Part shown: in pieces, positions 26,097 to 46,172 of the stretch
Layout: the number at the start of each line of letters is the position of its first letter
Numbering within the stretch: the first letter of the stretch is position 1
DNA from: Halogranum rubrum
GTDB lineage: Archaea > Halobacteriota > Halobacteria > Halobacteriales > Haloferacaceae
Direction: 5' to 3'
NCBI RefSeq assembly: GCF_900114455.1
Contig: NZ_FOTC01000001.1
Coordinates: 521,058 to 585,057 of the forward strand
Length of the DNA: 64,000 bases
Program-made: the position numbers and the translations under genes
Notes under the pieces: model-generated
The model's database searches: none
What the model was told of the DNA's origin: nothing
The model's input: the letters and a program-made list of their open reading frames with translations, nothing else

Positions 26097-26234
26097 GGTG
26101 ACCCCAGTACTCACTCGACGGTACGCCGAAACGGAGTAAAAACACCTGCTAAGAGGGATATTGAGACAACCGTTGTCGAGAGTGTGGCTGTCTCACGCTC
26201 CGGCGGATTCGCCTCACCGACAGCCTACCGAGCG

Positions 26235-26876: not shown

Positions 26877-26880
26877 AGAA

Positions 26881-28652: not shown

Positions 28653-28681
28653 TGTGACTAAAAGAACGGCAGTTCTATCGA

Positions 28682-30425: not shown

Positions 30426-31021
30426 GGGCGCTCGACATCGATCCCGTCCACGACACGCGCGAGACGTTCCGTGCGCTCGTCGATGCGACGAGTCGCCCCG
30501 GGACCGTCGAGCAGACGCCGACCACCCCTGCAGTTCACGCCGTCGTCGCGACGCTCGTCGACCACGAGGTGACCCTCCACGGTGGCGGTGACGAACTCCG
30601 GACGACGCTCGGCCGCGAGAGTCGTCTCGACACCGCGCCGTTCGAGGACGCCGACGTCGTCGTCGTCGACGGACACACCGACGGCCGCGTCACTGTGGCC
30701 AAACGAGGCAGTCTGAAAGAACCGAGCGAGGGCGCGACGCTCGTCTACGAGGTAGCTGACCTATCGGCAGATACCGAACCTATCGACGGCGACGACGACC
30801 AGACGCTGACACTCGCCGTGAGCGGCCCAGGTGTCCCCGACACGCGCACGTTCGGTGTCGATGGGCTCCCTGCCACAGAAGTCGAGGCGATTGCGGAGGC
30901 GCAGTCTGGCTACCCGCGTGGCGTCGACGTCTATCTCGCGGCCGACGACCGTGTGGTCGGACTGCCGCGATCGGTCGACCTGTCGGTCGCGTCTGACGTA
31001 CCGGACGAGGAGGTGGCGTAG
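30422..31021 (+). CDS. phnH: C-P lyase core subunit PhnH
   Basis: 199 residues. The N-terminus IDPVHDTRETFRALVDATSRPGTV is the PhnH signature. The remainder is Asp/Glu rich with EGATLVYEVADL and the closing SGYPRGVDVYLAADDRVVGLPRS. PhnH resembles PLP-dependent transferase folds but has no catalytic lysine; it is a structural core subunit. It overlaps phnG by 4 bases and its TAG abuts the phnI ATG. Confidence 0.92.
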   Translation: MRALDIDPVHDTRETFRALVDATSRPGTVEQTPTTPAVHAVVATLVDHEVTLHGGGDELRTTLGRESRLDTAPFEDADVVVVDGHTDGRVTVAKRGSLKEPSEGATLVYEVADLSADTEPIDGDDDQTLTLAVSGPGVPDTRTFGVDGLPATEVEAIAEAQSGYPRGVDVYLAADDRVVGLPRSVDLSVASDVPDEEVA

Positions 31022-32161
31022 ATGGGCTACGTCGCCGTGAAGGCGGGTGAAGAAGTTATCCGCCGGGCAGAGGACCTCTTCGAGAAGCGCCGCGTCGACG
31101 GCGAAGACGAACCGGTCTCCGTCGAACAGGTCGAATCGCAGTTCAGCCGACTCGTCGGGCAGGTCATGAGTGAGGGTGGTCTGTACGCTCCGAAACTCGC
31201 CGCCCGCGCGGTCAAGCAGGCGCAGGGCGACGCCGCCGAGGCAGCGTTCCTCCTGCGCGCCTACCGGTCGACGCTCGAACGCTACGACGACTCGCTGCCC
31301 TCGAGTCCGGACGCGATGTTTGCCACGCGGCGCGTCTCGCCCGCGTACAAGGACGTCCCGGGTGGGCAGATCCTCGGGGCGACGAAGGACTACACGCAGC
31401 GACTACTGGACTTCGAGTTCGACGAGTCGGACCCGACCGACGAGTGGGACCTCGGTGACGACGAACCCGAGTCGCTTCGGAACGTGATGGAAGTGCTCCG
31501 CGACGAGGGACTGGTCTCGGACCCCGACCCCGTCGACGACACTGACGTCACGGATACGACCCGCGAACCGGTGATGTTCCCCGCGCCACGCGACGCCATC
31601 CTACAGGAACTCGCACGCGGCGAGACGGGTGCGGTGACCGCCCTCGCCTACAGCGCCCTCCGTGGATACGGACAGGTGCATCCGACACTCGGCGAAGTAC
31701 GGGTCGGGTCGCTCCCGGTCGAAATCGAACACCCCTACACGGGAGAGTCGGCCGAGGTGACGAGCGTCGAAGTGACCGAGTCCGAGAGCGTCGTCCCGGT
31801 CTACGCCAAACGCGACGACCCGCAGTTCTCCTTCGGCTACGGACTGGTGTTCGGCCGCAACGAGCGCAAAGCCATCGGGATGACCATCCTCGACGCCTCC
31901 ATCCAACTCGACGGCGACGAACCCGCCGAAGACGCGGAGTTCGTCCTCGATACGGTGGACGGTATCGACTCCTTCGGCTTCATCGAACACCTCAAACTCC
32001 CGCACTACGTCACGTTCCAGAGCATCCTCGACCGGATTCGGGCGATTCGAGAGCGGAAGGGATTGGACCCTGTCGATGGCGGGGAGCGCACGGACGGTGA
32101 TGGCGGCGGCGACACACCGAGCGACCGCGAGGCACCGCAGGCGGTGAGCGACGATGACTGA
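31022..32161 (+). CDS. phnI: C-P lyase core subunit PhnI, nucleosidase
   Basis: 379 residues. MGYVAVKAGEEVIRRAEDLFEKRR, RRVSPAYKDVPGGQILGATKDYTQRLLDFEF and the C-terminal FIEHLKLPHYVTFQSILDRIRAIRE are characteristic of PhnI. In E. coli PhnI is the nucleosidase and transferase that replaces adenine of ATP with the phosphonate, giving ribosyl phosphonate triphosphate with PhnG, H and L. The acidic tail after residue 345 is a haloarchaeal addition. It overlaps phnJ by 8 bases. Confidence 0.93.
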   Translation: MGYVAVKAGEEVIRRAEDLFEKRRVDGEDEPVSVEQVESQFSRLVGQVMSEGGLYAPKLAARAVKQAQGDAAEAAFLLRAYRSTLERYDDSLPSSPDAMFATRRVSPAYKDVPGGQILGATKDYTQRLLDFEFDESDPTDEWDLGDDEPESLRNVMEVLRDEGLVSDPDPVDDTDVTDTTREPVMFPAPRDAILQELARGETGAVTALAYSALRGYGQVHPTLGEVRVGSLPVEIEHPYTGESAEVTSVEVTESESVVPVYAKRDDPQFSFGYGLVFGRNERKAIGMTILDASIQLDGDEPAEDAEFVLDTVDGIDSFGFIEHLKLPHYVTFQSILDRIRAIRERKGLDPVDGGERTDGDGGGDTPSDREAPQAVSDDD

Positions 32162-33203
32162 CCAGACCCAGATGCACGAGACGAGTCCGACGACAGAAGC
32201 GACCGACAACGAACAGCAGGAGTCCGCCACGACACCGACCGGCGTCTCCGACCTCCTCAGCGAGTCCGGCGCCGGAATGGCCGGCTACAACTACGCCTAC
32301 CTCGACGAGCACACGAAGCGCGAGGTGCGACGCGGCGTGCTGAAGGCCATCTCACTCCCGGGCCACCAGGTACCTTTCGCCTCTCGGGAGATGCCGCTCG
32401 CTCGCGGATGGGGAACTGGTGGGATTCAGGCCTCGCTCTCACTGCTCGGTCCGGCGGACACGTTCAAGGTCATCGACCAGGGAAGTGACGAGAGCGTCAA
32501 CGCCGCCAACATCCGCCGACTGGCGAAGACGACGGCGGACGTCGAGACGACCACAGACACGACCGAGGCGTCGGTTATCCAGACGCGACACCGCATCCCC
32601 GAAGAAGTCCTCACCGACGAGCAGATTCTCGTCTTACAGGTCCCGACGACCGACGCACTCCGCCGTGTCGACGGGAGCGACGACGCGAACCGTCGCCGTC
32701 ACGCGCACAAGAACTACTCGAAGATGTGGGTCGCACTCTACGAGAACGTCGTCAAGTGGGACGAGATTCAGATCTCTGCCCGCTATCCGGCGATGGTGAA
32801 CGGCCGCTACCTGATGGACCCTTCGCCCATCCCGCGGTGGGACACGACCAAACTCAACGACGCCGACTCGCTGTTCCTCTTCGCCGCCGGACGCGAGGCA
32901 CGCATCTACGCCGTCCCACCGCACACCGACGTCGAACCGCTGGCGTTCGAGGACCGCTCGTTTCAGGTCGAACGGTTCGACGAGAGCTGTCACCGCTGTG
33001 GGTCGACTGATACCTACCTGACCGAGGTTACCGGCGACGACGGTGTCACGCGCTACGCCTGCAACGACGCCTCGTTCTGCGAGAAGCGTGCGGAGCATCC
33101 GGACCTCTCGAAGGACCACCACCTCGACGAGGACGACGTGGCTTGGGGGCCGGAGACGCCGGACCCGATTCTGTCCGACGAGACGGGAGGTGAGGACGCG
33201 TGA
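32154..33203 (+). CDS. phnJ: Radical SAM C-P lyase
   Basis: 349 residues. It cleaves the C-P bond of ribosyl phosphonate with S-adenosylmethionine and an iron-sulfur cluster. The family block GYNYAYLDEHTKREVRR, then LPGHQVPFASREMPLARGWGTGGIQ, is strong; Gly70 in LPGHQVPF corresponds to the glycyl-radical Gly32 of E. coli PhnJ. Four Cys fall at 279, 282, 303 and 309 (CHRCG and CNDASFC), one residue shorter between the second and third than in E. coli. An acidic extension of about 40 residues precedes the conserved start. It overlaps phnI by 8 bases and phnK by GTGA. Confidence 0.95.
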   Translation: MTDQTQMHETSPTTEATDNEQQESATTPTGVSDLLSESGAGMAGYNYAYLDEHTKREVRRGVLKAISLPGHQVPFASREMPLARGWGTGGIQASLSLLGPADTFKVIDQGSDESVNAANIRRLAKTTADVETTTDTTEASVIQTRHRIPEEVLTDEQILVLQVPTTDALRRVDGSDDANRRRHAHKNYSKMWVALYENVVKWDEIQISARYPAMVNGRYLMDPSPIPRWDTTKLNDADSLFLFAAGREARIYAVPPHTDVEPLAFEDRSFQVERFDESCHRCGSTDTYLTEVTGDDGVTRYACNDASFCEKRAEHPDLSKDHHLDEDDVAWGPETPDPILSDETGGEDA

Positions 33204-34027
33204 GCCTTCTCGACGCGGAGAACGTGACCCGATTCTACGGCGAGTTCGAGCCCTGCGGTGACTGTGTCGACCTCACTGGCCCGACCCACGGCCGAAACCA
33301 GTGTCCGGACTGCGGGACGGTCGTCGGCTGTGCCGACGTGGACCTCGACGTCGAACGCGGTGAAGTCTTGGGAATCGTCGGCGAGTCCGGCAGCGGCAAG
33401 TCCAGTCTCGCGGAGATGCTGGCGCTGGACCTCGCGGCGACGGCGGGGAACGTCGAGTTCGCCTCCTACGACGGCAACCTCCTCGATGCGAACTACGAGG
33501 AGCGCGTCGACCTGCGGAACACGAACGTCGGGATGGTCCACCAGCACGTCCGCGACGGCTTGAATCTGGAGTTCACTGGGGGTGGCAACGTCGCCGAGTC
33601 GCTCTTGGCTGCCGGGTGGCGCAACTTCGATGAGATCCGGGCGCGCGTCCGCGACCTCTTCGAGGAGACGGAGGTCCCGGTAGACCGGATGGACGACCCG
33701 ACAGACACCTACAGCGGCGGGATGCAGCGCCGTGTCCAGATTGCGAAGGCCATCGCCAACGACCCCGAACTCGTCATTCTCGACGAACCGACCACCGGTC
33801 TCGACGTGAGCGTGCAGGCCCGCGTTCTCGATATGTTTCGCCGCATTCAGCGCGAGCAGGACGTCGCCACCATCGTCGTCTCACACGACCTCGGTGTGGT
33901 CCGCCTGCTCGCCGACCGAACCGTCGTGATGCGGCACGGGCGTGTCATCGAGTCGGGCCTGACCGACCGCGTCATGGAAGACCCGCAGCGCGAGTACACC
34001 CAGACCCTCATCAATTCAGTCATATGA
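33200..34027 (+). CDS. phnK: C-P lyase ABC subunit PhnK with a cysteine-rich insert
   Basis: 275 residues, GTG start overlapping the phnJ stop (GTGA). ABC ATPase with Walker A GESGSGKS at 61-68, Q-loop MVHQHVRDGLN, signature TYSGGMQRRVQ, Walker B LVILDEPTTGLD and His switch. In E. coli PhnK docks onto the core through PhnJ, and no transport function is expected. The N-terminus is odd: Cys19, 22, 35, 38 and 44 (CGDC, CPDCG, GC) sit between the first strand and Walker A and look like a zinc ribbon. E. coli PhnK has only a short loop there. It overlaps phnL (ATGA). Confidence 0.92.
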   Translation: MSLLDAENVTRFYGEFEPCGDCVDLTGPTHGRNQCPDCGTVVGCADVDLDVERGEVLGIVGESGSGKSSLAEMLALDLAATAGNVEFASYDGNLLDANYEERVDLRNTNVGMVHQHVRDGLNLEFTGGGNVAESLLAAGWRNFDEIRARVRDLFEETEVPVDRMDDPTDTYSGGMQRRVQIAKAIANDPELVILDEPTTGLDVSVQARVLDMFRRIQREQDVATIVVSHDLGVVRLLADRTVVMRHGRVIESGLTDRVMEDPQREYTQTLINSVI

Positions 34028-34791
34028 CAATCCTCGAAATCGACCAGCTACGAAAGGAGTTCCAGATGCACGTCGTCGGCGGGAAGCGCGTCGTCGGTCT
34101 CGACGGCGTCTCGTTCGACGTCGCAGACGGTGAGTTCCTCGCCATCGTGGGTGAATCCGGCAGCGGGAAGTCGTCGCTGTTGAAGTGTCTCTACCGGACC
34201 TACCTTCCCTCGGGCGGGGCGATTCGGTTCGAGAGCACCGACGGCTCTGTCGACCTCGCGTCCTGTTCGGAGCGTCGACTGCTCGAACTCAGAGACGACG
34301 AAATCGGCTACGCCTCACAGTTCCTCGACGAAATCCCACGCGTACCCGCCCTCGACGTGGTCGCACGACCGCTCGTCGAAGAGGGCGTTGAACGACCCGC
34401 GGCGCGGGATGTCGCCCGCGACCTGCTCACGGCGTTGAACCTTCCGGAAGAGCTCCACGACGCCTACCCGGCGACGTTCAGCGGCGGCGAGCGACAGCGG
34501 GTGAATCTCGCTCGTGCCATCGCACCCCGTCCCCGTCTCCTTCTGCTCGACGAACCGACTAGCGCGCTCGACCCGGAGACGAAAGCGGCCGCTATCGACC
34601 TGCTGGACCGCTACCTCACCGAGGAGACCACGGTCGTCGGCGTCTTTCACAACCGCGACGTCGTCGCACAGGTTGCAGACCGGGTCGTCGTCCTCGACGA
34701 CGCCGCACTCCAGCGCGTCGTCGACGTGGAGACGTACGCCGAGGAGACGAGTTCCGAGATCGACCTCGCGGAATCGGAGGTGGGCGTATGA
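34024..34791 (+). CDS. phnL: C-P lyase ABC subunit PhnL
   Basis: 255 residues, ABC ATPase: Walker A VGESGSGKSSLLKCLYRTYLP, the PhnL-typical Q-loop YASQFLDEIPRVPALDVV, signature FSGGERQRVNLARAI, Walker B LLLLDEPTSALD and HN switch region. In E. coli PhnL joins PhnG, H and I in the ATP-phosphonate coupling. The FLDEIPRV stretch separates it from PhnK. It overlaps phnK and phnM by 4 bases each. Confidence 0.92.
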   Translation: MTILEIDQLRKEFQMHVVGGKRVVGLDGVSFDVADGEFLAIVGESGSGKSSLLKCLYRTYLPSGGAIRFESTDGSVDLASCSERRLLELRDDEIGYASQFLDEIPRVPALDVVARPLVEEGVERPAARDVARDLLTALNLPEELHDAYPATFSGGERQRVNLARAIAPRPRLLLLDEPTSALDPETKAAAIDLLDRYLTEETTVVGVFHNRDVVAQVADRVVVLDDAALQRVVDVETYAEETSSEIDLAESEVGV

Positions 34792-35984
34792 GTGGTCCCG
34801 AGACCGCAGAACGAGTTCGTCACGACGAACAGAGGACGTACGACGTCGTCGTCGCCGACGCTCGGGTAGTGACGCCCACGGAGACGGTTCGCGGAAGCGT
34901 CGCCGTCCGCGACGGCAAAATCGCTGCCATCGAGTCGGGTGAGTTCGAGAGCGACGCCGAGGCGACCACCCGCGTCGACGCCGACGGGCGCGTACTCATG
35001 CCCGGTATCGTCGACCTACACGGCGACGACATCGAGAAGCATCTCCACCCACGGAGCAACGCCGCGGTCGAACCGCCGATGGCGCTCGCCTCCGCCGACA
35101 GGGCCAACGTCTCGTCGGGTATCACGACCAAGTTCCACGCCATCGCCTTCGAGGAGGCCCCCGAGAAGGACCGCTCGCCCGAACTAGCGATGGACCTCGT
35201 CGACTCGATTCGCGCCAGCGACTCGCTCATCGCCGACCACCGTATCCACGCCCGCTGTGAGATTACGGACGAATCTTGCGTCGACGCTGTCGAACGGGTT
35301 CTCGACGGCGACGCCGCCTCACTCGTTTCGGTGATGAGCCACATCCCCGGCAAGGGGCAGTTCGGCGACATCGAGCGGTTCCGCTCCTACTACGAGAACG
35401 ACGCGAACCTCTCGGTCGAGGAGGCCGAGGAACTCATCGAGGAGCGGACGAGTCTCTCCGAGGAGACGCTCTCGACGCGTATCGACCGCATCGTCGCCGC
35501 CGCCGAGGAGGCAGACGTGGTCGTGGCCTCCCACGACGACGAGACACCGGTCGAAGTCGAGCGACTCGACGACCGCGGCGTCGCCATCAGCGAGTACCCC
35601 ATCACACTCGACGCGGCCGAACGCGCCCGTGACCTCGGGATGGTCACCGCGATGGGCGCACCGAACCTCGTCCGAGGCGGGAGTCAGTGGGGCAACCTCG
35701 CCACCGAGGAGGCTATCGAGGCCGACGCGGCCGACGCACTGCTCGCGGACTACCACCCGCCGTCGCTGCTCGCCGCCCCGTTCGTCGACACCGGCGAGTC
35801 GCTGGCGACGCGAGTCGCTCGCGTGACGACGAACCCGGCCGATGCCGTCGGTCTGACTGAACGAGGTCGCATCGAAGTCGGGGCGCGAGCCGACCTGATT
35901 CTGGTCGACCCCGAACCTACCCCAGTCGTCGAGCGTGCCTTCGTCGACGGCGAACCCGCGTTCGTCGCGGAGGCTCCACGATGA
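34788..35984 (+). CDS. phnM: Ribosyl phosphonate triphosphate diphosphatase PhnM
   Basis: 398 residues of the amidohydrolase fold. Metal motif VDLHGDDIEKHLHPR (PhnM variant of HxH), carboxylate region in SVMSHIPGKGQFGD, and ASHDDETPVEVERL plus the end MGAPNLVRGGSQWGN. The N-terminal beta-sandwich begins VADARVVTPTETVRGSVAVRDGKI. PhnM removes diphosphate to leave ribosyl phosphonate 5-phosphate, the PhnJ substrate. It is coupled upstream to phnL and downstream to a TIM-barrel gene (ATGA both sides). Confidence 0.93.
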   Translation: MSGPETAERVRHDEQRTYDVVVADARVVTPTETVRGSVAVRDGKIAAIESGEFESDAEATTRVDADGRVLMPGIVDLHGDDIEKHLHPRSNAAVEPPMALASADRANVSSGITTKFHAIAFEEAPEKDRSPELAMDLVDSIRASDSLIADHRIHARCEITDESCVDAVERVLDGDAASLVSVMSHIPGKGQFGDIERFRSYYENDANLSVEEAEELIEERTSLSEETLSTRIDRIVAAAEEADVVVASHDDETPVEVERLDDRGVAISEYPITLDAAERARDLGMVTAMGAPNLVRGGSQWGNLATEEAIEADAADALLADYHPPSLLAAPFVDTGESLATRVARVTTNPADAVGLTERGRIEVGARADLILVDPEPTPVVERAFVDGEPAFVAEAPR

Positions 35985-36772
35985 GCACCGAGTCCAGACT
36001 CGGGGCCGCCATGGACCTTCGCTTCGAGGAGTCGGTCCAGGAGTTCGCGGCGTACGTCACCGACCGTGGCCTCGACCACGTCGAACTCAAACGCGAGTAC
36101 CTCCACGCGCATCCCGACGCACCAACGCCACACGAACTCGCCGAACTCGGCCGCGAGTCCGACGTGACGTTCACGCTCCACGCACCCTTTCGCGACTGGA
36201 ACCTCGGGAGTTTCAACGACGCCTCGCGCCGCGCCTCGGTCGAACAGGTCAAGCGGACGCTAGACGACGCCGCGGCCGCAGACGCGGGTGCCGTTGTCGT
36301 CCACGGTGGGTCGGTTCCGCGGCGCTATCCCGACCACGTTCACGCGAAGGCGCGACAGAACGCGGTCGAGTCGCTGCGAGCGTGCGCGGAGCACGCCGCC
36401 CACGTGGGCGTGCCGCTGTGTCTCGAGAACCAGCCTCGTTCGGATACGAAACTACGCCACACGACGACACCGGACGACCTCGACTCGCTTCTCACGGCCG
36501 TCGACGCTGACCCCGAGTGGCTGAGAGTCACCCTCGACGTCGGCCACGCGAAGGTCAACGGTTTCGACTGGCGAACCTTCGCCGACCGGTTCGGGAACCG
36601 CATCGAAGTGGTCCACCTCCACGACAACGACGGCACCAACGACGACCACGAACCATTGACCGACTACGAGACTGTCGTCTCGGCCACGGACGCTACCTAC
36701 CACGTCTTCGAGATGAAACGAGTGTGCGACGTCGACGCCTGTCTCGCAGTGGCGCCGTCGAGACTGTCGTGA
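35981..36772 (+). CDS. TIM-barrel protein (xylose isomerase/AP endonuclease 2 family) at the end of the C-P lyase operon
   Basis: 263 residues of the sugar-phosphate isomerase/epimerase-like TIM barrel. It shows the metal-site layout of the family: HVELKREYL, FTLHAPF, VVHGGSVP, CLENQPR with a metal-binding Glu, TLDVGHAKVNG and VVHLHDNDG. The ATG overlaps the phnM stop (ATGA). E. coli operons end with PhnN, PhnO and PhnP; PhnP opens the ribosyl cyclic phosphate. No phnP-like gene is seen here, so this metal-dependent enzyme is a candidate for that step or for later sugar isomerisation. Family is clear, substrate is inference. Confidence 0.85.
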   Translation: MSTESRLGAAMDLRFEESVQEFAAYVTDRGLDHVELKREYLHAHPDAPTPHELAELGRESDVTFTLHAPFRDWNLGSFNDASRRASVEQVKRTLDDAAAADAGAVVVHGGSVPRRYPDHVHAKARQNAVESLRACAEHAAHVGVPLCLENQPRSDTKLRHTTTPDDLDSLLTAVDADPEWLRVTLDVGHAKVNGFDWRTFADRFGNRIEVVHLHDNDGTNDDHEPLTDYETVVSATDATYHVFEMKRVCDVDACLAVAPSRLS

Positions 36773-36914: not shown

Positions 36915-37292
36915 ATGAATCGGCAAGCGTCGAACACCGGTGAGACCGAGCAAGTGCAGACCGACGGCGACAGAGTGTGCTGTAGCGCCGAGCACTCGCT
37001 GAGTGAGGACGAACTGGCCGCAGACGTACAGTTGTTGTCTGCGCTCGGCAACGACACGCGCTACGAGGCGCTTCGGCTCATCGCCGGAACCGACAGCGAC
37101 GTCTGCGTCTGCGAGTTAGAGCCTGCCCTCGGCGTCAGTCAGAGTGCTGTCAGTCAGGCGCTCTCTCGGCTCTACTCGGCAGGGCTCGTCTCCCGCCGGA
37201 AGGACGGCCGGTGGCGCTACTACGCCGCGACGCCGCAGGCCGAGCGACTATTGGACGCACTCGACGACGTCCGGGGTGGGGCCGATGCGTGA
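36915..37292 (+). CDS. arsR: ArsR-family metalloregulator
   Basis: 125 residues from the ATG at 36915, chosen because it follows the operator-like dyads. The winged helix ALGNDTRYEALRLIAG, then SDVCVCELEPALGVSQSAVSQALSRLYSAGLVSRRKDGRWRYY is typical ArsR/SmtB. CVCEL is the As(III)/Sb(III)-sensing Cys pair at the recognition region; a second CC pair lies near the N-terminus. It should leave DNA when arsenite binds. The end overlaps arsM by 8 bases, so it controls and is translated with the methyltransferase. Confidence 0.93.
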   Translation: MNRQASNTGETEQVQTDGDRVCCSAEHSLSEDELAADVQLLSALGNDTRYEALRLIAGTDSDVCVCELEPALGVSQSAVSQALSRLYSAGLVSRRKDGRWRYYAATPQAERLLDALDDVRGGADA

Positions 37293-38115
37293 CGACGCCG
37301 ACACACCCGAGTCGACGACCGGTCTCGACCCGAACACCCAGCGCCGAGCGGTCCGTCGGCGCTACGCTCGTATCGCCACCGAGGAGTCGAGTTGCTGTGC
37401 TAGCTCAAGTTGTGGAGGCGACGACGACAACGACGACCTGAACCGACAGCTGGGCTACTCCGCGGCGGACGACGAGTCCGTCGCAGAGGGTGCGAATCTC
37501 GGACTCGGCTGTGGCAACCCGAACGCGCTCGCCGCGCTGCAACCGGGTGAGACGGTCCTCGACCTCGGATCGGGCGCGGGGTTCGACTGCTTTCTCGCCG
37601 CACGGGAAGTCGGCGAGACGGGCCGCGTCGTCGGCGTCGACATGACGCCGGAGATGGTCGAGAAAGCGCGAGAGAACGTCGAGAAGAACGACGCGCACAA
37701 CGTGGCGTTCCGCCTCGGTGAAATCGAACATCTACCCGTCGCGGACGGGACGGTCGACGTGATCATCTCGAACTGCGTCGTGAACCTCTCGCCGGACAAA
37801 CAGCAGGTGTTCGACGAAGCCCATCGCGTTCTCCGGCCCGGTGGCCGACTCGCCATCTCGGATGTGGTGCTAACTGCACGACTGCCGAGCGATGTCCACG
37901 CAGACCCGGAGTCCGTCGCCTCTTGCGTTGCTGGCGCGTCGCCGATTGCCGACCTCGAAACGATGCTGTCGACGGCGGGGTTCGAACAGATCACGATCGT
38001 CCCAAGGGAAGCGAGTGAACAGTTCATCCGCGAGTGGGACGACGCGCGTGACGTCAGCGACTACGTCGTCTCCGCGACTATCGAGGGTCGGAAGCCCGAA
38101 CAGAACGTGTCGTGA
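37285..38115 (+). CDS. arsM: Arsenite S-adenosylmethionine methyltransferase
   Basis: 276 residues from the ATG at 37285. Class I methyltransferase with SAM motif VLDLGSGAGFDCFLA (about 91-105) and VGVDMTPEMV. The arsenic-binding cysteines of ArsM families correspond to Cys76 (GLGCGNP), Cys164 (SNCVVNLS) and Cys214 (SCVAGAS). An N-terminal Cys run (ESSCCASSSCGG) may deliver metal. It methylates As(III) to organic, partly volatile forms. It is expressed with arsR; no arsenite pump is in the window. Confidence 0.93.
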   Translation: MRDDADTPESTTGLDPNTQRRAVRRRYARIATEESSCCASSSCGGDDDNDDLNRQLGYSAADDESVAEGANLGLGCGNPNALAALQPGETVLDLGSGAGFDCFLAAREVGETGRVVGVDMTPEMVEKARENVEKNDAHNVAFRLGEIEHLPVADGTVDVIISNCVVNLSPDKQQVFDEAHRVLRPGGRLAISDVVLTARLPSDVHADPESVASCVAGASPIADLETMLSTAGFEQITIVPREASEQFIREWDDARDVSDYVVSATIEGRKPEQNVS

Positions 38116-38200: not shown

Positions 38201-38863
38201 TCACGGTTTCGACGCGGACGTCTGGTCGACGTAGCCGGGGAACGCGGGAACCCTCTCGCCGTGTGAGAGTGCGTCCGAGAGGAGTTTCGACTCTGCCTTT
38301 CGGAGGTGTTCTAGCACCGTCGAGTGAGTGATATCCAACTCCTGTGCCAACTCCTCGCTGGTGAGGCGCCGTGGCCACTCGAAATACCCGCGTTCGAGCG
38401 CCAGTTCGAGCACTTCGTACTGCCGCGGTGTCAACGCGGCCGTCGGTGGATGAAACTCTTTGACGTGGCCCAGTGTCGCCGTCCCAATCTCTTTGAACTC
38501 CTCGATGACCGCACGGAGGTCCTCACGACGGAACAGCAAGACGGTGTACTCTCGCCGACTCGACGAGATATAGTTCCGTCGCCGCATGATACCGTGGTTC
38601 CGGTCGACCGCCTCGTAGGCACCGCACGACGTCTTCGTGACGAGGAACGTCGTCTCGGTGAGTCGTTCGATGTGGGTGACCTGCGACGATTGCTCGAAGA
38701 ACTCGTACACTTTCTCGCAGGCTTCCTCCAGTTCGATGATGAACGTCACCTGGTGGTCGTGGAGTTCCTCGATGGCGACTTCGAACGAGGTGTCGAATCG
38801 CGCCGCGATGTCGGAGAGGACACAACTCTTCTCCTGCTGGAGGTGAATCTCTGCCTGGAACAT
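38201..38863 (-). CDS. Bacterio-opsin-activator-type HTH regulator
   Basis: 220 residues. The C-terminal HTH_10 domain is clear (LTPRQYEVLELALERGYFEWPRRLTSEELAQELDITHSTVLEHLRKAESKLL). The N-terminal region (about 1-150) is the usual sensor part of the Bat-like family, with FEQSSQVTHIERLTETTFLVTK. Its ligand is not known. It lies 113 bases beyond the end of the HMGL-like gene on the same strand, last in line with the hydantoinase-type operon, so it may regulate it. Start at the ATG 38863 is standard for the family (MFQAEIHLQQ). Confidence 0.88.
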   Translation of the reverse strand: MFQAEIHLQQEKSCVLSDIAARFDTSFEVAIEELHDHQVTFIIELEEACEKVYEFFEQSSQVTHIERLTETTFLVTKTSCGAYEAVDRNHGIMRRRNYISSSRREYTVLLFRREDLRAVIEEFKEIGTATLGHVKEFHPPTAALTPRQYEVLELALERGYFEWPRRLTSEELAQELDITHSTVLEHLRKAESKLLSDALSHGERVPAFPGYVDQTSASKP

Positions 38864-38976: not shown

Positions 38977-40077
38977 TCAGGAACCGAACTCTCGCTCGGC
39001 GAGTGCCACCGCGTCGGCCAGATGTAGCGGCCCTCGGTCGTCGAGCAGGTCGAGGAAGGCAGCGACGGTTTCGTCGTCAGCGTCGACGCCGGCCCGCTGG
39101 AGGAGCTTTCGCGCACCGCCTTTCCCAGTCGGTTTCCCGAAGACGAGTCGTCGGCCCCCCCCGAACGTCGCTGGGTCGAAGGGTTCGAGCGTCGCCGGGT
39201 CGCTGAGCATCGCCGCGGTGTGAATCCCCGACTCGTGTTCGGCGATGGCCGACCCGAGGACGGCCTTTCGCTCGCCGTACGACTCACCGAGTTCGTCGAG
39301 GACGTCACGACACACCGGAATCAGTTCGCCGACGTCGACGCCGAGGGTGTCGTCGTCGTCGACCGTACAGGCGGCGACGACCTCTTCGAGAGAACTGTTT
39401 CCGGCACGTTCGCCGAGTCCACCGACGCTCACGTCCGCTTTCGCGACACCGAGGTGGTAGGCCGCGAGGACGTTGGCCGTCCCACACCCGAGGTCGTCGT
39501 GGAAGTGAACGCCGACACGGCCGAGGTCGACATCCTCTCGCAACGCTTCGAGAAACGTCTGCACACTCGCCGGTGTCCGCACGCCGACGGAGTCCGCGAG
39601 GGTGACCATCGGCACGTTCGGAAGCGACTCGAACACGTCGACGAGGTCCGCGTGGTCAGTACGAAACGCGTCGGCGAGCGTCACGTGCGGCGTCCCCCCG
39701 TGGTCGACGACGTGGTCGACGGCGTTCGTGAGCATCGCGAGCATCTCCGGTCTGGACTTTCCGAGCAGATGTTCGAGATGACGGTCGGAGACGGAGACGA
39801 ATACCTCGACGACGTCGGCGCCGGCGTCGAGCGAGACGTCGATGTCGCCCGTCACCGCCCGGGCGAGTGCGACGATGTCCGCGTCGGTCGTCCCGGCGAG
39901 TTCGCTGACGACGGACCGGTCTTTCTCGCCGGTAATCGGGAACGCCGGTTGGATGAACGGGACGCCGAGTTCGTCGAGTCGGCGCGCGGCACGAACTTTC
40001 TGGTCGGCGGTGAACGCACGGCCGGGCATCTGGTCTCCTTCTCGGAGGGTGACGTCGTTGAGTTGCATCCGGGGCAT
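38977..40077 (-). CDS. HMGL-like (isopropylmalate/homocitrate/citramalate synthase-related) enzyme
   Basis: 366 residues of the DRE-TIM metallolyase superfamily. LNDVTLREGDQMPG supplies the DRE-like motif as LREGDQ (with Arg and Asp/Glu). VGVHFHDDLGCGTANVLAAY provides the metal-binding HxH, and GLGERAGNSSLEEVV is the usual loop. The C-terminus ESGIHTAAMLSDP resembles the synthase type (homocitrate/isopropylmalate) rather than HMG-CoA lyase, but it lacks the long LeuA regulatory domain. The start abuts the CoA transferase stop. Likely an acyl-CoA condensation or its reverse in a catabolic pathway; substrate unknown. Confidence 0.85.
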   Translation of the reverse strand: MPRMQLNDVTLREGDQMPGRAFTADQKVRAARRLDELGVPFIQPAFPITGEKDRSVVSELAGTTDADIVALARAVTGDIDVSLDAGADVVEVFVSVSDRHLEHLLGKSRPEMLAMLTNAVDHVVDHGGTPHVTLADAFRTDHADLVDVFESLPNVPMVTLADSVGVRTPASVQTFLEALREDVDLGRVGVHFHDDLGCGTANVLAAYHLGVAKADVSVGGLGERAGNSSLEEVVAACTVDDDDTLGVDVGELIPVCRDVLDELGESYGERKAVLGSAIAEHESGIHTAAMLSDPATLEPFDPATFGGGRRLVFGKPTGKGGARKLLQRAGVDADDETVAAFLDLLDDRGPLHLADAVALAEREFGS

Positions 40078-41295
40078 CTAGATGACCCCGTCTGCCCGAA
40101 GGTCGGCCAGTTCGTCTGCCGAGAGACCGAGTTCGTCGCCGTACACCTCGCTGTTGTGCTCGCCGTGCTGTGGTCCCATGAACTCGACTTCGCCGGGCGT
40201 CCGCGAGAACTTCGGCGTCGGCGCGAACGTCTTGATGTCGCCGACGTCGGGGTCCGTCACCTCGATGATAGCGTCGCGCGCCTGGAACTGCTCGTCGTCG
40301 AAGATGTCCGCCATGTCGTAGACGGGGCCGACGATAGCGTCGTTCGCTTCGAGAATCTCGATGGCTTCGTCGGTGGTGTGTTCTCTCGTCCACGCCTCGA
40401 TTTCGGCGTCGAGGGCGTCGACGTTTTTCACACGGGTCGCGTTGTCCGCGAACCGCGGGTCGTCGATGAGGTCGGGTCGGTCGATACTGTTGGCGACTCG
40501 CTCGAAGATTTTCTGATTCGAGGCGGAGAGCGTCATGTAGCCGTCGGCCGTCTCGTAGATGTTCCGCGGGGCGGTGTTGGGATGGCGGTTCCCCGTCCGC
40601 TCACGGACGTGACCCTGCCGGTCGTAGGCTTCGACCTCGCCGAAGAACAGTCGCCACAGCGGTTCGGTCAATGAGACGTCGATGACCTGTCCTTTTCCAC
40701 TGCCGCCGCGGCCGAGGTCACGTTCGTAGACGGCCATCATCGTCGCCTGCAACGCGAACTGCGCGGCCGTGAGGTCGGCGAGGCTCACCGGTGGCAAGAG
40801 CGGTTCTCTGTCCGGGAAGCCGTTGGCGTGTGCCCACCCCGAGATACCCTCGGCGATGGTACCGAATCCGGGTTTCTGTGATTTCGGTCCCGTCTGGCCG
40901 TACCCCGAGAGTCGAACCATGATGGCCCGTTCGTTGACCTCGTGGATGTCGTCGGGGCCGAGTCCCCACCGCTCCATCGTCCCCGGCCGGAAGTTCTCGA
41001 AGACGACGTCCGCATCTTCGATGAGGTCGAGTGCGATGGCTCGTCCGCGCTCGTCGCCCAAATCGAGCGTCACACAGCGCTTGTTCCGACCGAGCGACTT
41101 CCACGAGAGCGAACTCCCGTCGTCGGTCTTCTGCGGCCACTCACGAATCGGATCGCCGACCTTCGGATGTTCTATCATCACGACGTCAGCCCCGAAGTCG
41201 CCCATCATCGTCGTCGCGAACGCACCGCTTATCATGCCGGACATGTCGATGACGCGGAGACCGTCGAGCGGTCCCTGTCGTTCGCGTGCGGTCAT
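40078..41295 (-). CDS. Class III CoA transferase (CaiB/BaiF family)
   Basis: 405 residues. GLRVIDMSGMISGAFATTMMGDFGADVVMIEHP, DVVFENFRPGTMERWGLGPDDI and MVRLSGYGQTGP are family hallmarks. The catalytic Asp is expected in SLADLTAAQFALQA. Moves CoA between organic acids. Its ATG overlaps the stop of a 35-residue ORF (ATGA), and its stop abuts the HMGL-like gene, so it activates an acid for that enzyme, or receives CoA from it. Substrate not determinable from sequence. Confidence 0.9.
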   Translation of the reverse strand: MTARERQGPLDGLRVIDMSGMISGAFATTMMGDFGADVVMIEHPKVGDPIREWPQKTDDGSSLSWKSLGRNKRCVTLDLGDERGRAIALDLIEDADVVFENFRPGTMERWGLGPDDIHEVNERAIMVRLSGYGQTGPKSQKPGFGTIAEGISGWAHANGFPDREPLLPPVSLADLTAAQFALQATMMAVYERDLGRGGSGKGQVIDVSLTEPLWRLFFGEVEAYDRQGHVRERTGNRHPNTAPRNIYETADGYMTLSASNQKIFERVANSIDRPDLIDDPRFADNATRVKNVDALDAEIEAWTREHTTDEAIEILEANDAIVGPVYDMADIFDDEQFQARDAIIEVTDPDVGDIKTFAPTPKFSRTPGEVEFMGPQHGEHNSEVYGDELGLSADELADLRADGVI

Positions 41296-41399
41296 TCGTG
41301 GTTCTCCTGTGTACTCAGTGCAATCGTGGTGTGCATCGGTTTCGTCGTTCCCGTCGCTCCCGTCGCCGAGTCGGTCTCGGTCTCAGTTCTCGTACTCAT
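41292..41399 (-). CDS. Putative 35-residue coupled microprotein
   Basis: Between the isochorismatase-like gene and the CoA transferase, an open frame starts with ATG at 41399-41397 inside the upstream stop (ATGA). It ends with TGA at 41294-41292 inside the downstream start (ATGA). Product: mostly Thr, Ser, Ala and acidic residues at first, then MHTTIALSTQENHE. It has no known domain. The double 4-base overlap matches the style of real coupled genes here, but such a frame could also simply serve as a translational bridge. Confidence 0.45.
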   Translation of the reverse strand: MSTRTETETDSATGATGTTKPMHTTIALSTQENHE

Positions 41400-42067
41400 G
41401 TGCTCTCGGCGTCGCTGGTCGAACCGTACGTCTCGTCGAGGTGCTCGCAGACGGCATCCGTCGTCACGACGTCGCCGTACTTCGCGTCGATGTCGAACAG
41501 GTTCGCCTCGTGTGGTCCCTGTGCTCTGTCGCCGACGGCGTCGGCCGGGACGATGGTGCGATAGCCGTGTTGGAGGCTGTCGACTGCCGTCGCCCGGATA
41601 CACCCGCTCGTCGTCACGCCGGCGAGGACGAGCGTATCCACTCGCTGCGTCGTCAACTCCGTCTGGAGGTCGGTGCCGAAGAAGGCGCTCGCGTACTTCT
41701 TGAGGACGACTCGCTCGTCGCCGACCGGTTCGATTCGGTCGTCGACTTCGACGCGTTCCGTCCCGAGTCGAAGCTCTCGCAAGGCGGGCACCTTCTCGAT
41801 GAACATGCCCGCGTCGCCGTAGGACTCCTCGAAGGCGACGGTGGTGAAGTACCGCGGCAGGTCGTACTCGCGGAAGGCGTCGAGGAGTCGCTTCGTCGCG
41901 TCGAGCACGTCGTCGACGTCCGACCCGAGGTTCGAGTCGGGGTCGGTGAACGCGTTGATGAGGTCGATGACGACGAGCGCCGGTTGCTCGCCGAACCCTA
42001 CCGACTCGCCGAACTCGCGTTCGGCGTACAGTTCGCCAGCCTCGTCGAGCCAACTGGTCGAACTCAT
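41396..42067 (-). CDS. Isochorismatase-like cysteine hydrolase (N-carbamoylsarcosine amidase type)
   Basis: 223 residues. The catalytic triad pattern is intact: Asp in ALVVIDLINAFTDPDS, Lys in VVLKKYASAFFGTDLQ and Cys in AGVTTSGCIRATAVDSLQ. The closing TIVPADAVGDRA is standard for the family. Members hydrolyse N-carbamoylsarcosine, nicotinamide or isochorismate. Beside hydantoinase-type subunits, an amidase for an N-carbamoyl product fits best. It starts 3 bases after the hyuB stop and overlaps the 35-residue ORF. Confidence 0.88.
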   Translation of the reverse strand: MSSTSWLDEAGELYAEREFGESVGFGEQPALVVIDLINAFTDPDSNLGSDVDDVLDATKRLLDAFREYDLPRYFTTVAFEESYGDAGMFIEKVPALRELRLGTERVEVDDRIEPVGDERVVLKKYASAFFGTDLQTELTTQRVDTLVLAGVTTSGCIRATAVDSLQHGYRTIVPADAVGDRAQGPHEANLFDIDAKYGDVVTTDAVCEHLDETYGSTSDAEST

Positions 42068-42070
42068 CGC

Positions 42071-43924
42071 TCACTCCCGGTCATCGAACTCACGCCGTTC
42101 CGCTGCGATGTTCGCCGCCAGTTCGTCGTAGTCGGGGAGCGGCCCGTAGTCGAACTCCGAGAGGTCCTCTCGGCTATCGCGAAGTTCCTCGCGGGCGTCG
42201 GCCGTCGCAGACTCGTCTACAGACCCGTCGTCGTCGACGACGACGCCGTACGCCGACTTCGCACTCGCCGCGGAGACGAGTCCCTGTCGGACCTCTCGGG
42301 CGACGACGGCGGCATCTCGGTCGAGCGGGTCACCCAGTCCGCCGCCCGCGGCCGTCCGGAAGACGAACTTGTCGCCGGCGCTGACCGCGACGTTCTCCGC
42401 CTTCGAGGGGAGTCGTTCTTCGGTGCCGTCGGTCCGAACGAGAACCTTCTCGCTCCTCTCGCCGTGCGTCCCGCCGTCGACGCCCCACGGGTAGGTGTGT
42501 GCGCGGTCGTCTTGGAACGTTATCGCGCCATCCTCTTCGAAGGTGTAGACCTTCGTGATGCCGTGGCCGCCGCGGAACTCGCCGGCACCGCCCGTATCTG
42601 CCCGCGTACTGTACTCGTCGATGGTCAGCGGGTAGTACGCCTCTTGATACTCGGCGGGAACGGTGCGGAACATCGGCCACCACGAGTGGCCGTCCAGTCC
42701 GTCACCGCCGGGGCGTGCCGGAATCCCTCCGTAGAGAATCTCCAGCATCTGGAACGAGTTCCCCTCGGAGTCGGTTCCGGCGTAGACGAGATTCGGCGAG
42801 GTGCCGTAACTGCCGGCGACACTGAAGCCGTCGATGAGTTTCGAGAACGTCGCCTGCAGGACGTCGAACTGCCGCGCCATGAGCGGAAGGCGATTCCCGA
42901 GGGCGGCGGGATACTCCGGTTGGACGACGCTCCCCTTCGGCAGGTTCACCTCGAAGAGGTCGTAGTAGCCGTCGTTGAAGGTGAGAAGCGGGTCGAACGC
43001 CATGATGAGAAACACCCCGACGAACATCTTGAACATCTTCTCGTTCAGGAGGAAGTTGACCGTGCCCGGTACCTGGTCGTCGGTGCCCTCCCAGTCGAGG
43101 TAGACGGTGTCGCCCTCGCGGTAGATTTCGAGGTGGAGTTTGATGGGGCCGTTGCCGAGGCCGTCGTCGTCGACGAAGTCCTCGAACGTGTAGCGTTCGC
43201 CTTCGGGGACGAACTCGCGGATGAGGTCTATCATCCCGTCGCGGGTTCGGTCGAGGATGGCGTCGGTCGCTTCCACGTACGTCTCTCGACCGAAGCGGTC
43301 ACAGAGTTCGCGTACCCGCGTCTCTGCTGCCTTCGTCCCGGCGGCGAGCGCCTTGATGTCGGCTTCGGCGTGGTCGGGGAGACGCGTGTTGTGCGCGAAC
43401 GTGTGGAGCAGTTCCTCGTCCAGCGTTCCCTCCTTGTAGAGTTTCACCGGCGGCAGTCGCATCCCCTCCTCGAAGATGGTGCGGGCGTTGACGGGCATGC
43501 TCCCCGGCGTCTTCCCGCCGACGTCCATCAGGTTCCCCCACTGACTGGAGAACCCGACGAGGTGACCCTCGTAGAAGATGGGCCGCAACAGCAGCATGTC
43601 GGGCGTGTGCGACAGCGCACCCGCACACATGTAGGGGTCGTTCGTCGCGATGACGTCGCCGTCGTTCAGGTCGTCCCACTCGAACGGCGAGTTCTCGATG
43701 ATGGTGTCGATGGCGCTCCCGAACTGTCCCATTACCATCCGCCCCTTTCCGTCGGCGATGAGCGGGAACTGGTCGGACTGCTCGCGGATGACCGGGCTGA
43801 TGGCCGTCGTCTCCAAGACGCGGTCCATCTCGTAGCGGGTGTTCGATAGCGTGCTCTCGATGATGTCTAAGGTCGTCGAGTCGACGTCGTGTTCGCCGAC
43901 GAATTCGGGTGTCTGGTCGCTCAT
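42071..43924 (-). CDS. hyuB: Hydantoinase B/oxoprolinase family, beta subunit
   Basis: 617 residues of the HyuB family: TISPVIREQSDQFPLIADGKGRMVMGQFGS, DVIATNDPYMCAGALSHTPDMLLLRPIF, MPVNARTIFEEGMRLPPVKLY and TGGAGEFRGGHGITKVY. It forms a complex with HyuA. Members are ATP-dependent hydantoinases, 5-oxoprolinases, caprolactamases or the larger subunit of acetone/acetophenone carboxylases. The ATG overlaps the hyuA stop (ATGA). Which reaction is run depends on the substrate, which the sequence does not show; the amidase next door favours a cyclic amide such as N-methylhydantoin. Confidence 0.9.
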   Translation of the reverse strand: MSDQTPEFVGEHDVDSTTLDIIESTLSNTRYEMDRVLETTAISPVIREQSDQFPLIADGKGRMVMGQFGSAIDTIIENSPFEWDDLNDGDVIATNDPYMCAGALSHTPDMLLLRPIFYEGHLVGFSSQWGNLMDVGGKTPGSMPVNARTIFEEGMRLPPVKLYKEGTLDEELLHTFAHNTRLPDHAEADIKALAAGTKAAETRVRELCDRFGRETYVEATDAILDRTRDGMIDLIREFVPEGERYTFEDFVDDDGLGNGPIKLHLEIYREGDTVYLDWEGTDDQVPGTVNFLLNEKMFKMFVGVFLIMAFDPLLTFNDGYYDLFEVNLPKGSVVQPEYPAALGNRLPLMARQFDVLQATFSKLIDGFSVAGSYGTSPNLVYAGTDSEGNSFQMLEILYGGIPARPGGDGLDGHSWWPMFRTVPAEYQEAYYPLTIDEYSTRADTGGAGEFRGGHGITKVYTFEEDGAITFQDDRAHTYPWGVDGGTHGERSEKVLVRTDGTEERLPSKAENVAVSAGDKFVFRTAAGGGLGDPLDRDAAVVAREVRQGLVSAASAKSAYGVVVDDDGSVDESATADAREELRDSREDLSEFDYGPLPDYDELAANIAAERREFDDRE

Positions 43925-45984
43925 TGGCTCTCTCCTCGGGTAATTTCGAGATTCTCGTACGAGTCTACGCGCGCCTCGTGGTTCGGTTGGACGACGACGG
44001 TGGAGTCGTCGTCGACGACGATAGCCGGACCGTCGATTCGGTTGCCCGGTCGTAACTGCCCACGGTCGTAGATGGGGGTGTCGTGGTACGACTCGTCGAA
44101 GTAGACCTCGTGACTCCCGGTTCGTGCGTCGCTCGCGTCTTCGCCGCCGAGTTCGTGTTCGACGAGTGTGACACCGTCGACGGCACCTTTACCGACGATT
44201 CGGAGGTTGGCGATTTCGAGGGGCGCGTCGAGCGAGAAGCCGAAGCGCTGGTCGTGGCGTCGTTCGAAGTCGGCTTTGATCTCGTCGAGACCCGTCTCAC
44301 GCTGGAGATTCTCGACGTCGACCGGAATCGACATCTGGATGTCCTGTCGGTAGTACCGGCAGTCCGCGAAGTACTCGAACGACTGGTCGTCGTCCGAGAC
44401 GCCCTCGGAGTCGAGCCAGTCGGCGGCTTCGTCTCGAATCGCGTAGAGTCGTTCGGCGACGTCGGTGCCGGTGACGTCCTCGTCGGTCTCCAGATACGTC
44501 TCGGAGAACTCGTTTTGGATGTCGCTCGTGAGGAAGCCGAACGCACTCATCACACCCGGTCCCGGCGGGACGAGCAGTGGGTACGCTCCCATGACGTCCG
44601 CGAGGGCGTTCGCGTGCATCGGTCCGGCACCGCCGAACGCGACGAGTCCGAACTCGCGGGGGTCGTATCCGCGCTCGACGGAGACGACCCGGAGCGCGCC
44701 GTGCATGTTCTCGTTGACCAGGTCGACGATAGCCTGTGCAGCCTCTTCGACGGAGGTGCCCCGCTCGTCTGCCACCGTCTCGATTGCCTCGCGAGCGGCG
44801 TCTCGGTCGAGGTCCATCCGCCCGCCGAGTTGGACAGACGGCGGAATCCGTCCGAGGACGACGTTCGCGTCGGTGACGGTCGGTTCCGTCCCCCCTCGTC
44901 CGTAGCACGCTGGTCCGGGGTCCGCCCCCGCACTCTCTGGACCGACCTGCAGTGCCCCGGAGAGTTGGACGCGTGCAATCGACCCGCCGCCCGCACCGAC
45001 GGTGGTCACGTCGACACCGCGCGATTTGAACTCTCGATACCCCACCTTCGTCTCTCGGGTCGACTCCGGCGTCCCGCCTTCGACGAGTGAGACGTCCGTC
45101 GACGTTCCACCCATATCGAGGGTGAGCACGTCCGGGACACCCTTCTTGCTCGCGATGGTCGCCGCGCCGACGACACCACCGGAGGGACCAGACAGCGCGA
45201 GTTCGACGGGGCGATGTTTCGCCGCCTCGGAGCTCATCAACCCGCCGTCCGAGCGGACGACGTTCATCGTTGCGCTCGAACCGGAGTCGCGCAGTGAGGC
45301 GTCGAGGTCGTCGAGATAGTCGATGACCTTCGGACGAGCGTAGTCGTTGATGACCGTCGTCAGGGTCCGCTCGTACTCGCCGTACTCGGGCACGATTTCC
45401 GACGAGATAGAGACTGGAAGGTCTGGATACTCCTCGGTGACGACGTCGCGGACGGCCCGCTCGTGGGCGGGGTTGAGATACGAGTTCATCAGCGCGATGG
45501 TGAGTGATTCGATACCCGACTCGTACAGGTCGGCGACGTGCTCACGTATCTCCGTCTCGTCGATGGGTTCGACTTCGGTACCGTCCGGTGACGAGATTCG
45601 CCCCGAGACACTTCGCGTGTCGACGAGGTCGGCCAGTGGGTCCGGTTTCTCCATCCCCATCCAGCCGTAGAGTGGGCCCGGTGTCCACGCTCGCGCGAGG
45701 TGGAGGATGTGCTCGTGCCCAGCCGTGGTGATGAGACCGACCCGAGCACCCGTCTCCTCCAGCAACATGTTCGTGACGACAGTCGTCCCGTGAAAGAGCA
45801 AGTCGAGTTCGGCGACGGTGGTCCCTGCCTTCTCGGTCGCTTCCCTGATACCCGTGACGACGCCGTTCGACGGGTTGTCCGGCGTCGAGAGCACCTTGTC
45901 TATCGTCAGTTCCTGCGACTCGCCGTCGAAGACGATGACGTCGGTGAACGTTCCACCGACGTCTACCCCTAGATTGTGTGTCAT
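43921..45984 (-). CDS. hyuA: Hydantoinase A/oxoprolinase family, alpha subunit (ATP-binding)
   Basis: 687 residues from the ATG at 45984, which gives the family N-terminus LGVDVGGTFTDVIVFDG (ASKHA-type phosphate-binding loop); the longer upstream frame has no homology features. LFHGTTVVTNMLLEETGARVGLITTAGHEHIL, the second nucleotide motif LTLDMGGTSTDVSLVEGG, and AFGGAGPMHANALADVMG all match HyuA. It uses ATP to activate the ring amide or a carboxylation substrate together with HyuB. First gene of a five-to-six gene minus-strand operon. Confidence 0.92.
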   Translation of the reverse strand: MTHNLGVDVGGTFTDVIVFDGESQELTIDKVLSTPDNPSNGVVTGIREATEKAGTTVAELDLLFHGTTVVTNMLLEETGARVGLITTAGHEHILHLARAWTPGPLYGWMGMEKPDPLADLVDTRSVSGRISSPDGTEVEPIDETEIREHVADLYESGIESLTIALMNSYLNPAHERAVRDVVTEEYPDLPVSISSEIVPEYGEYERTLTTVINDYARPKVIDYLDDLDASLRDSGSSATMNVVRSDGGLMSSEAAKHRPVELALSGPSGGVVGAATIASKKGVPDVLTLDMGGTSTDVSLVEGGTPESTRETKVGYREFKSRGVDVTTVGAGGGSIARVQLSGALQVGPESAGADPGPACYGRGGTEPTVTDANVVLGRIPPSVQLGGRMDLDRDAAREAIETVADERGTSVEEAAQAIVDLVNENMHGALRVVSVERGYDPREFGLVAFGGAGPMHANALADVMGAYPLLVPPGPGVMSAFGFLTSDIQNEFSETYLETDEDVTGTDVAERLYAIRDEAADWLDSEGVSDDDQSFEYFADCRYYRQDIQMSIPVDVENLQRETGLDEIKADFERRHDQRFGFSLDAPLEIANLRIVGKGAVDGVTLVEHELGGEDASDARTGSHEVYFDESYHDTPIYDRGQLRPGNRIDGPAIVVDDDSTVVVQPNHEARVDSYENLEITRGESQ

Positions 45985-46172
45985 ACGGTAACTACCCAAC
46001 AGTCTGTTTGGGGAAAATAGGCTAAACGTTCCCCCCACACTTGTTGGTCGTATATCCGCCACCGTCTCTGATCGCCAGACAGAGACGCTACGACGGTCTA
46101 CTCGCACACTCGAAGGTGTCCGGGACGAATCTGTCGTTCAGGGCGACTTCAGACGATGTAGAGTGACGTAGG

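Follow-up and report, generated by a model that had tools for sequence, protein, structure and literature searches.

Gene organization of the operon

We have analysed an operon of Halogranum rubrum that lies on the minus strand of a 64,000-nucleotide stretch of contig NZ_FOTC01000001.1 (positions 521,058 to 585,057), called the window below, and that combines the genes hyuA and hyuB with genes for an amidase, a coenzyme A (CoA) transferase of the CaiB type and a LeuA-like protein. An earlier note, made from the DNA letters, had described five genes and a Bat-type regulator on one strand, and the open reading frames and Pfam families bear this out, all of them on the minus strand. The features are as follows.

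46020..46060, minus strand: TATA box and inverted-repeat operator of hyuA (GGCGGATATACGACCAACAAGTGTGGGGGGAACGTTTAGCC), position-weight matrix score 37.5
43921..45984, minus strand: hyuA, ATP-binding subunit of the hydantoinase/oxoprolinase/lactamase type, 687 residues (PF01968, PF05378, PF19278)
42071..43924, minus strand: hyuB, metal-site subunit, 617 residues (PF02538)
41396..42067, minus strand: isochorismatase-family cysteine amidohydrolase, 223 residues, putative half-amide or N-carbamoyl hydrolase (PF00857)
41292..41399, minus strand: open reading frame of 35 residues between the amidase gene and caiB, a spacer with no family match
40078..41295, minus strand: caiB, family III CoA-transferase, 405 residues (PF02515)
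38977..40077, minus strand, probable start 40068: LeuA-family protein, putative alkylmalyl-CoA lyase (PF00682 and HCS_D2)
38201..38863, minus strand: gene of a Bat-type protein with an HTH_10 domain, which may control the operon (PF04967)

The Pfam scores of the five genes were all far over the cut-off (Hydantoinase_A 317 bits, Hydantoinase_B 453, Isochorismatase 125, CoA_transf_3 400 and HMGL-like 194), and the HTH_10 domain of the regulator gene downstream of the operon scored 80 bits. The tight junctions of 0-3 bases claimed before are found, in essence, for hyuA and hyuB (4-bp overlap), for hyuB and the amidase gene (3-bp gap) and for caiB and the LeuA-like gene (0), but not for the amidase gene and caiB, which are 100 bp apart. 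The 35-residue open reading frame that had been described as bridging two genes does fill this interval. However, it is best read as a spacer, because it has no family match and is not conserved in the relatives examined. The interval varies among them in length and sequence, and in three relative loci it is replaced by a 4-bp overlap; we therefore rejected the open reading frame as a gene. Since the relatives of the LeuA-like protein begin at the methionine that is residue 4 here, its true start is probably 40068. For hyuA, the start at 45984 is preferred to a longer GTG start at 46107 because of the conserved promoter element at 46020-46060.

Conservation in haloarchaea and exchange of the lyase module

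We collected haloarchaeal loci by a HyuA identity of 70% or more over the aligned region, and they came from 42 of 391 Halobacteria genomes, the window locus counted. The earlier note had set beforehand that a neighbourhood search finding these genes apart would refute its proposal. On the contrary, they stay together: HyuA, HyuB and the amidase in all 42 loci, and the full five-gene set in 21. The arrangement of CaiB and the LeuA-like gene varies between a single operon, divergent units and the order CaiB-LeuA-Bat-HyuA-HyuB-amidase, and the strands vary too. In the other 21 loci, such as that on plasmid PL131 of Natronomonas pharaonis, one gene of the isocitrate-lyase superfamily (ISL) stands directly after the amidase gene and replaces both CaiB and the LeuA-like gene. 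Among the 42 loci, none has both lyase modules and none has neither. The ISL-type protein carries a KRCGH motif, and its best PDB matches are of the methylisocitrate lyase type, 2,3-dimethylmalate lyase, oxaloacetate acetylhydrolase and the petal death protein. The motif and three of these matches (methylisocitrate lyase, 2,3-dimethylmalate lyase, petal death protein) mark the ISL-type protein as a carbon-carbon lyase and not a mutase.

Of 41 relatives, 39 have kept a Bat-like gene close to the cluster. Near two other HyuA paralogues of the window genome, the amidase, CaiB, LeuA-like and ISL-type genes are all absent. Many independent lyase swaps within haloarchaea were ruled out by the tree, which has one change; independence is supplied by the bacteria. 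In two genomes the hyuA gene is damaged, being broken into two frames (G028, locus L104) or having one internal TGA (G258, locus L103), which reflects decay or assembly error.

Bacterial relatives

When 84,980 species genomes were searched with an alignment headed by a Rubrobacter HyuA, which shares 58% identity with the window HyuA, 80 loci were obtained, nearly all of them bacterial. Most bacterial loci contain HyuA, HyuB, the amidase, CaiB and a true HMG-CoA lyase, and a minority have an ISL-type lyase. CaiB is present in 57 of 79 bacterial loci, most of them with a true HMG-CoA lyase, and the ISL-type lyase in 11 of 79. CaiB occurs in 1 of the 11 loci with an ISL-type lyase versus 56 of the 68 without it (Fisher p 4e-6, relatedness ignored). 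On the HyuA tree the lyase types alternate nine times, in about six separate bacterial clades and the haloarchaeal one. Given this largely exclusive occurrence and repeated exchange, CaiB with its lyase seems to solve the same step as the ISL-type lyase, in an analogous way. In the CaiB tree, the clade of the window protein is the sister of the clade from bacterial HyuAB clusters.

Some carbon-carbon lyase module is found in 61 of the 79 bacterial loci as well as in all 42 haloarchaeal loci, swapped but not lost. This persistence is hard to reconcile with nitrogen scavenging of the hydantoin or creatinine type, where HyuAB would open an N-methylhydantoin or another hydantoin, the amidase would remove the carbamoyl group to leave an amino acid, and CaiB and the LeuA-like protein would act on something unrelated. 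The best PDB matches of HyuB, an N-methylhydantoinase, and of the amidase, N-carbamoylsarcosine amidohydrolase, favour this explanation. However, the amino acid product would need neither a malate-type lyase nor LeuCD, and the operator of hyuA is also found at caiB, so we regard it as unlikely.

Two bacterial loci (L126 and L152) have an extra histidinol-dehydrogenase-family gene, a short-chain dehydrogenase/reductase gene and a 3-hydroxyacyl-CoA-dehydrogenase-like gene, and L126 also has a ribose-type ABC importer, hinting at a polyol-bearing substrate for these clusters.

A common operator links hyuA and caiB

With a position-weight matrix built from the 42 hyuA upstream regions, an element consisting of a TATA box and CCAACA-n-TGTTGG was found about 73-77 nt before hyuA in 42 of 42 loci. 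The score was below 0 elsewhere in the window, the window genome (4.57 Mb) has a single occurrence of the pattern, and only 1 of 479 control upstream regions scored above 0. The same operator precedes caiB in 13 of 21 loci, where caiB has its own promoter, and the same matrix never placed it before hyuB, the amidase, LeuA-like or ISL-type genes. Because the operator is held in common, the hyuA and caiB units are tied together. The strong site is single, at hyuA, in the window genome and five others. Natronorubrum daqingense has CaiB and the LeuA-like gene without hyuAB nearby; there, operators lie 65-74 nt before the starts of caiB(-leuA-like), leuCD and an ABC transporter operon, and on two Haladaptatus plasmids they lie before caiB and a sodium:solute symporter gene. 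Accordingly, a hydratase and uptake are tied to the pair of CaiB and the LeuA-like protein independently of gene families.

We infer that the adjacent Bat-type protein binds the operator. Six further loci, from other haloarchaea (L032-L035, L108 and L109), have a Bat regulator, a CUT1-type ABC importer, CaiB and the LeuA-like gene without hyuAB, under a similar operator. A TATA box with an inverted repeat is also present in the promoter of a histidine-utilisation operon (L219, 15831-15871; L224, 13528-13568), beside its own HTH gene, which suggests that this is a general operator layout of Bat-type regulators.

LeuCD hydratase and a second cluster

LeuCD is present in eight bacterial clusters, in which both lyase types are represented. 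In about half of them LeuCD is additional to another genomic copy. In about half, however, the genome seems to have no leuC-type copy besides that of the cluster, and the idea of a dedicated extra copy in every cluster is partly true only. Because LeuCD is a hydratase of alkylmaleates and is found beside both lyase types, its association independently supports an alkylmalate skeleton.

The window genome has a second cluster at about 327-336 kb of contig G000:C6 (locus L218, G000:C6:321000-340999, positions 6041-15153). On one strand it encodes an NTF2-like protein, an LLM-class flavin oxidoreductase, an isochorismatase-family amidase, a dihydropyrimidinase/hydantoinase-type amidohydrolase, a CaiB that is 49% identical to the window CaiB, a true HMG-CoA lyase, and LeuC-like and LeuD-like proteins; a TcuA-like flavoprotein gene adjoins it on the opposite strand. 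Two relatives have this cluster too, and it is also found on plasmids of Haloferax and Natrinema; in Haloferax gibbonsii (L224) it adjoins hut genes. In its gene content it follows the same logic as the operon, with an ATP-independent ring opener and with the hydratase inside the unit.

Beyond the regulator gene, the window contains an arsenite methyltransferase gene (37144-38115; 358 bits versus a cut-off of 263), which lies between the regulator and a carbon-phosphorus lyase operon. That operon and phosphonate uptake genes occupy 23186-36772 (PhnH, PhnI, PhnJ, two ABC ATPases, an amidohydrolase and a TIM-barrel protein).

Sequence features of the enzymes

HyuA and HyuB contain complete Hydantoinase_A (N and C domains included) and Hydantoinase_B domains, which places them in the superfamily of ATP-dependent cyclic-amide hydrolases. 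The phosphate-binding motifs VDVGGTFTDV and LDMGGTSTDV of HyuA are conserved. The metal ligands of CapB are Asp-His-Asp-His, the fourth being His124 (PMC8453981), and in the alignment D51, H106 and D109 of HyuB correspond to three of the four. Among NCBIfam models, caprolactamase alpha is the closest to HyuA. Nevertheless, the proteins are not assigned to the caprolactamase CapAB equivalogs (NF050156/NF050157), with 531 and 218 bits versus a cut-off of 1000. This closest model favours a lactam-amide as the substrate, with HyuAB opening the lactam and the amidase hydrolysing a second amide group elsewhere in it, the later steps being unchanged. We consider that quite unlikely, as it requires a more elaborate substrate and leaves an amine for which the cluster has no removing enzyme.

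The claim that the substrate is a cyclic amide or a ketone is better supported in its first part, with a cyclic amide or imide favoured. Its second part would have HyuAB carboxylate ketones with ATP, like the acetone and acetophenone carboxylases, which belong to the same superfamily. There are, however, only two subunits, the NCBIfam models of such carboxylases gave 150-340 bits versus cut-offs of 1250-1500, and the constant amidase partner would be left unexplained; this role is highly improbable.

The catalytic Asp-Lys-Cys of the amidase is present in VVIDLINAF, LKKYASAFFGTDL and TTSGCIRATAVD (read by eye). Its nearest PDB chains are N-carbamoylsarcosine amidohydrolases, the isochorismatase-family hydrolase 4l07, and 3ot4/3uao, and its sequence is about equally near annotated N-carbamoylsarcosine amidohydrolases and maleamate amidohydrolases.

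CaiB has a whole-length CoA_transf_3 domain (400 bits) and is a family III CoA-transferase. It falls under the equivalog cut-offs of the substrate-defined members of this family, the best model giving 237 bits versus 750.

The last enzyme of the operon had been described as HMGL-like. The HMGL-like barrel (PF00682) is indeed there, but the protein belongs to the LeuA family, with HxH metal ligands and an HCS_D2 domain, and is not an HMG-CoA lyase: the model NF004283 gave 64 bits versus 246, and the loop reads GLGERAGN instead of the GGCPYA type with its catalytic Cys. Its best models are isopropylmalate and homocitrate synthases, at about half their cut-offs, and every LeuA, CimA and homocitrate synthase equivalog of NCBIfam scored under its cut-off. 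The Asn of the VNG-GER motif is replaced by Ala or Gly in 34 of 34 family members, as in true HMG-CoA lyase, whereas it is kept in all eight haloarchaeal paralogues examined and in two solved synthases. The Glu of the IEAGF motif is replaced by Gln in 32 of the 34, and CaiB adjoins the LeuA-like gene in nearly all. Loss of the synthase catalytic Glu was discarded as a lyase signature, since the haloarchaeal LeuA and CimA paralogues are also without it (MDAT motif).

Considering the lost VNG Asn, the CaiB neighbour and the cleaving enzymes that serve as substitutes elsewhere, the LeuA-like enzyme quite probably cleaves rather than condenses. Of the earlier wording "cleaved or condensed", the first half is thus favoured. 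Condensation would mean that the enzyme joins acetyl-CoA and a 2-oxoacid from the first three enzymes to a citramalate- or homocitrate-like acid, with CaiB recycling CoA. The LeuA-family fold, the metal ligands and the public label of citramalate synthase are in line with this. On the other hand, the scores under all synthase cut-offs, the Asn lost in every member and the presence among relatives of cleaving enzymes in its place (HMG-CoA lyase or ISL-type lyases) make it decidedly unlikely.

Proposed pathway

The linear route proposed in the earlier note (ring opening, deamidation, CoA activation, and cleavage or condensation) is supported by the linkage, the lyase substitution and the common operator. 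With moderate confidence, we propose that the operon is a dedicated catabolic pathway, with an operator of its own, that breaks down a cyclic imide or closely related cyclic amide with a 2-alkylmaleate/2-alkylmalate skeleton. The computations show the linkage of the genes, the lyase exchange, the common operator and the independent association of LeuCD with these modules; we infer each catalytic step, the direction of the LeuA-like reaction and the substrate, imide included. HyuA and HyuB, as their family suggests, would open the ring to a half-amide using ATP, and the amidase would free ammonia and leave a dicarboxylate. If this is unsaturated, a LeuCD-type hydratase encoded outside the operon could give the 2-alkylmalate. 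CaiB would transfer CoA to the 2-alkylmalate, and the LeuA-like enzyme would act as a lyase on the alkylmalyl-CoA, giving a 2-oxoacid and an acyl-CoA.

If two C-N bonds are hydrolysed in succession and a dicarboxylate is left, the starting compound should be a cyclic imide or something close. The ISL-type lyases of this group convert 2-alkylmalate to a 2-oxoacid and an acid, HMG-CoA lyases cleave 3-hydroxy-3-alkylacyl-CoA thioesters, and in LeuA-family enzymes alkylmalyl-CoA is the intermediate of alkylmalate synthesis. The lyase Rv2498c of M. tuberculosis acts on citramalyl-CoA and HMG-CoA alike (PMC6689899). From the exchanges and this family knowledge, the three unrelated lyase types would converge on one skeleton, R-C(OH)(COO-)-CHR'-COO- or its CoA ester.

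Several points weigh against this pathway. The haloarchaeal lyase exchange is a single change on the tree of HyuA, HyuB and the amidase, hence one event. There is no hydratase gene within the five-gene operon, and 19 of 120 loci have neither lyase type within 8 kb, partly owing to contig ends. In the alignment, Asn131 of HyuB replaces the CapB ligand His124. The nearest solved relatives, N-methylhydantoinase and N-carbamoylsarcosine amidohydrolase, would point equally to hydantoins, and the NCBI label of the LeuA-like protein is citramalate synthase. Sequence by itself leaves several substrates in play, since the substrates of functionally known relatives of the amidase and HyuB include half-amides, N-carbamoyl compounds, lactams and hydantoins.

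When chlorophyll and heme are oxidised, alkylmaleimides arise, and these are found in nature (PMC7318184). They fit the chemistry of the pathway, yet no gene in the cluster points specifically to them, and we give little credence to the view that the cluster degrades those from tetrapyrrole oxidation (methyl-ethyl-maleimide, methyl-vinyl-maleimide and hematinic acid, from chlorophyll or heme). In that case hematinic acid, opened and hydrated, would give a methylhomocitrate-like acid, which the homocitrate-synthase-like enzyme could split into propionyl-CoA and 2-oxoglutarate. Archaea and bacteria would then have in common a genetic route that mineralises the monopyrrole end products of chlorophyll.

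If the proposed pathway is right, it is widespread in archaea and bacteria and converts a nitrogen-containing ring compound to ammonia and intermediates of central metabolism. The repeated exchange of unrelated lyases restricts the intermediate, and therefore a small set of assays could serve to look for the substrate. A branch of the LeuA family would also gain a cleaving role. This branch includes or closely resembles Haloferax volcanii HVO_A0489, an open annotation problem listed as a LeuA-family paralogue of general function only (PMC8305020). HVO_A0489 appears to belong with the CaiB and LeuA-like loci without hyuAB, placed there by this listing and by its numbering beside cobA/cbiA, the neighbours on the Haloferax gibbonsii plasmid. 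The labels "citramalate synthase" and "N-carbamoylsarcosine amidohydrolase" on these genes may mislead.

Comparison with known systems

No description of the pathway came up in the open-access literature, which was searched for this set of genes, for a hydantoinase in the breakdown of maleimides and for the family names in combination; its parts can be compared with known systems. Nicotinate fermentation ends with dimethylmaleate hydratase and 2,3-dimethylmalate lyase. These end steps and Rv2498c (PMC6689899) show the same end logic as that proposed here, namely hydration of an alkylmaleate and then cleavage of an alkylmalate or 3-hydroxy-3-methylacyl-CoA, but the operon has different lyase families and a different entry, ring opening by HyuAB. 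Like CapAB, N-methylhydantoinase and 5-oxoprolinase, HyuAB has two subunits, ATP motifs in A and three of four metal ligands in B. It differs from CapAB in reaching about half or less of the caprolactamase cut-offs, in the change of His124 to Asn, and in its partners, an amidase and a lyase module.

The amidase is about half identical over the whole domain to N-carbamoylsarcosine amidohydrolase and to maleamate amidohydrolase (NicF), with the catalytic D/K/C and the GCxRATAVD and LFDIDAKYGDV motifs in common; unlike them, the amidase of the haloarchaeal loci is always partnered with HyuAB. The LeuA-like protein has 35-40% identity (haloarchaeal paralogues), the metal ligands and HCS_D2 in common with the LeuA, CimA and NifV/AksA synthases, from which it differs by the replaced VNG Asn and IEAGF Glu and by the nearly constant CaiB neighbour. 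Finally, the bacterial HyuA-HyuB-CaiB-HMG-CoA lyase-isochorismatase clusters of Sphingomonadales, marine Gammaproteobacteria, Actinomycetes and Roseiflexus consist of the same gene families, with the same CaiB subfamily, but have a true HMG-CoA lyase in place of the LeuA-like protein, and GntR regulators, often with TonB-dependent receptors, in place of the Bat regulator.

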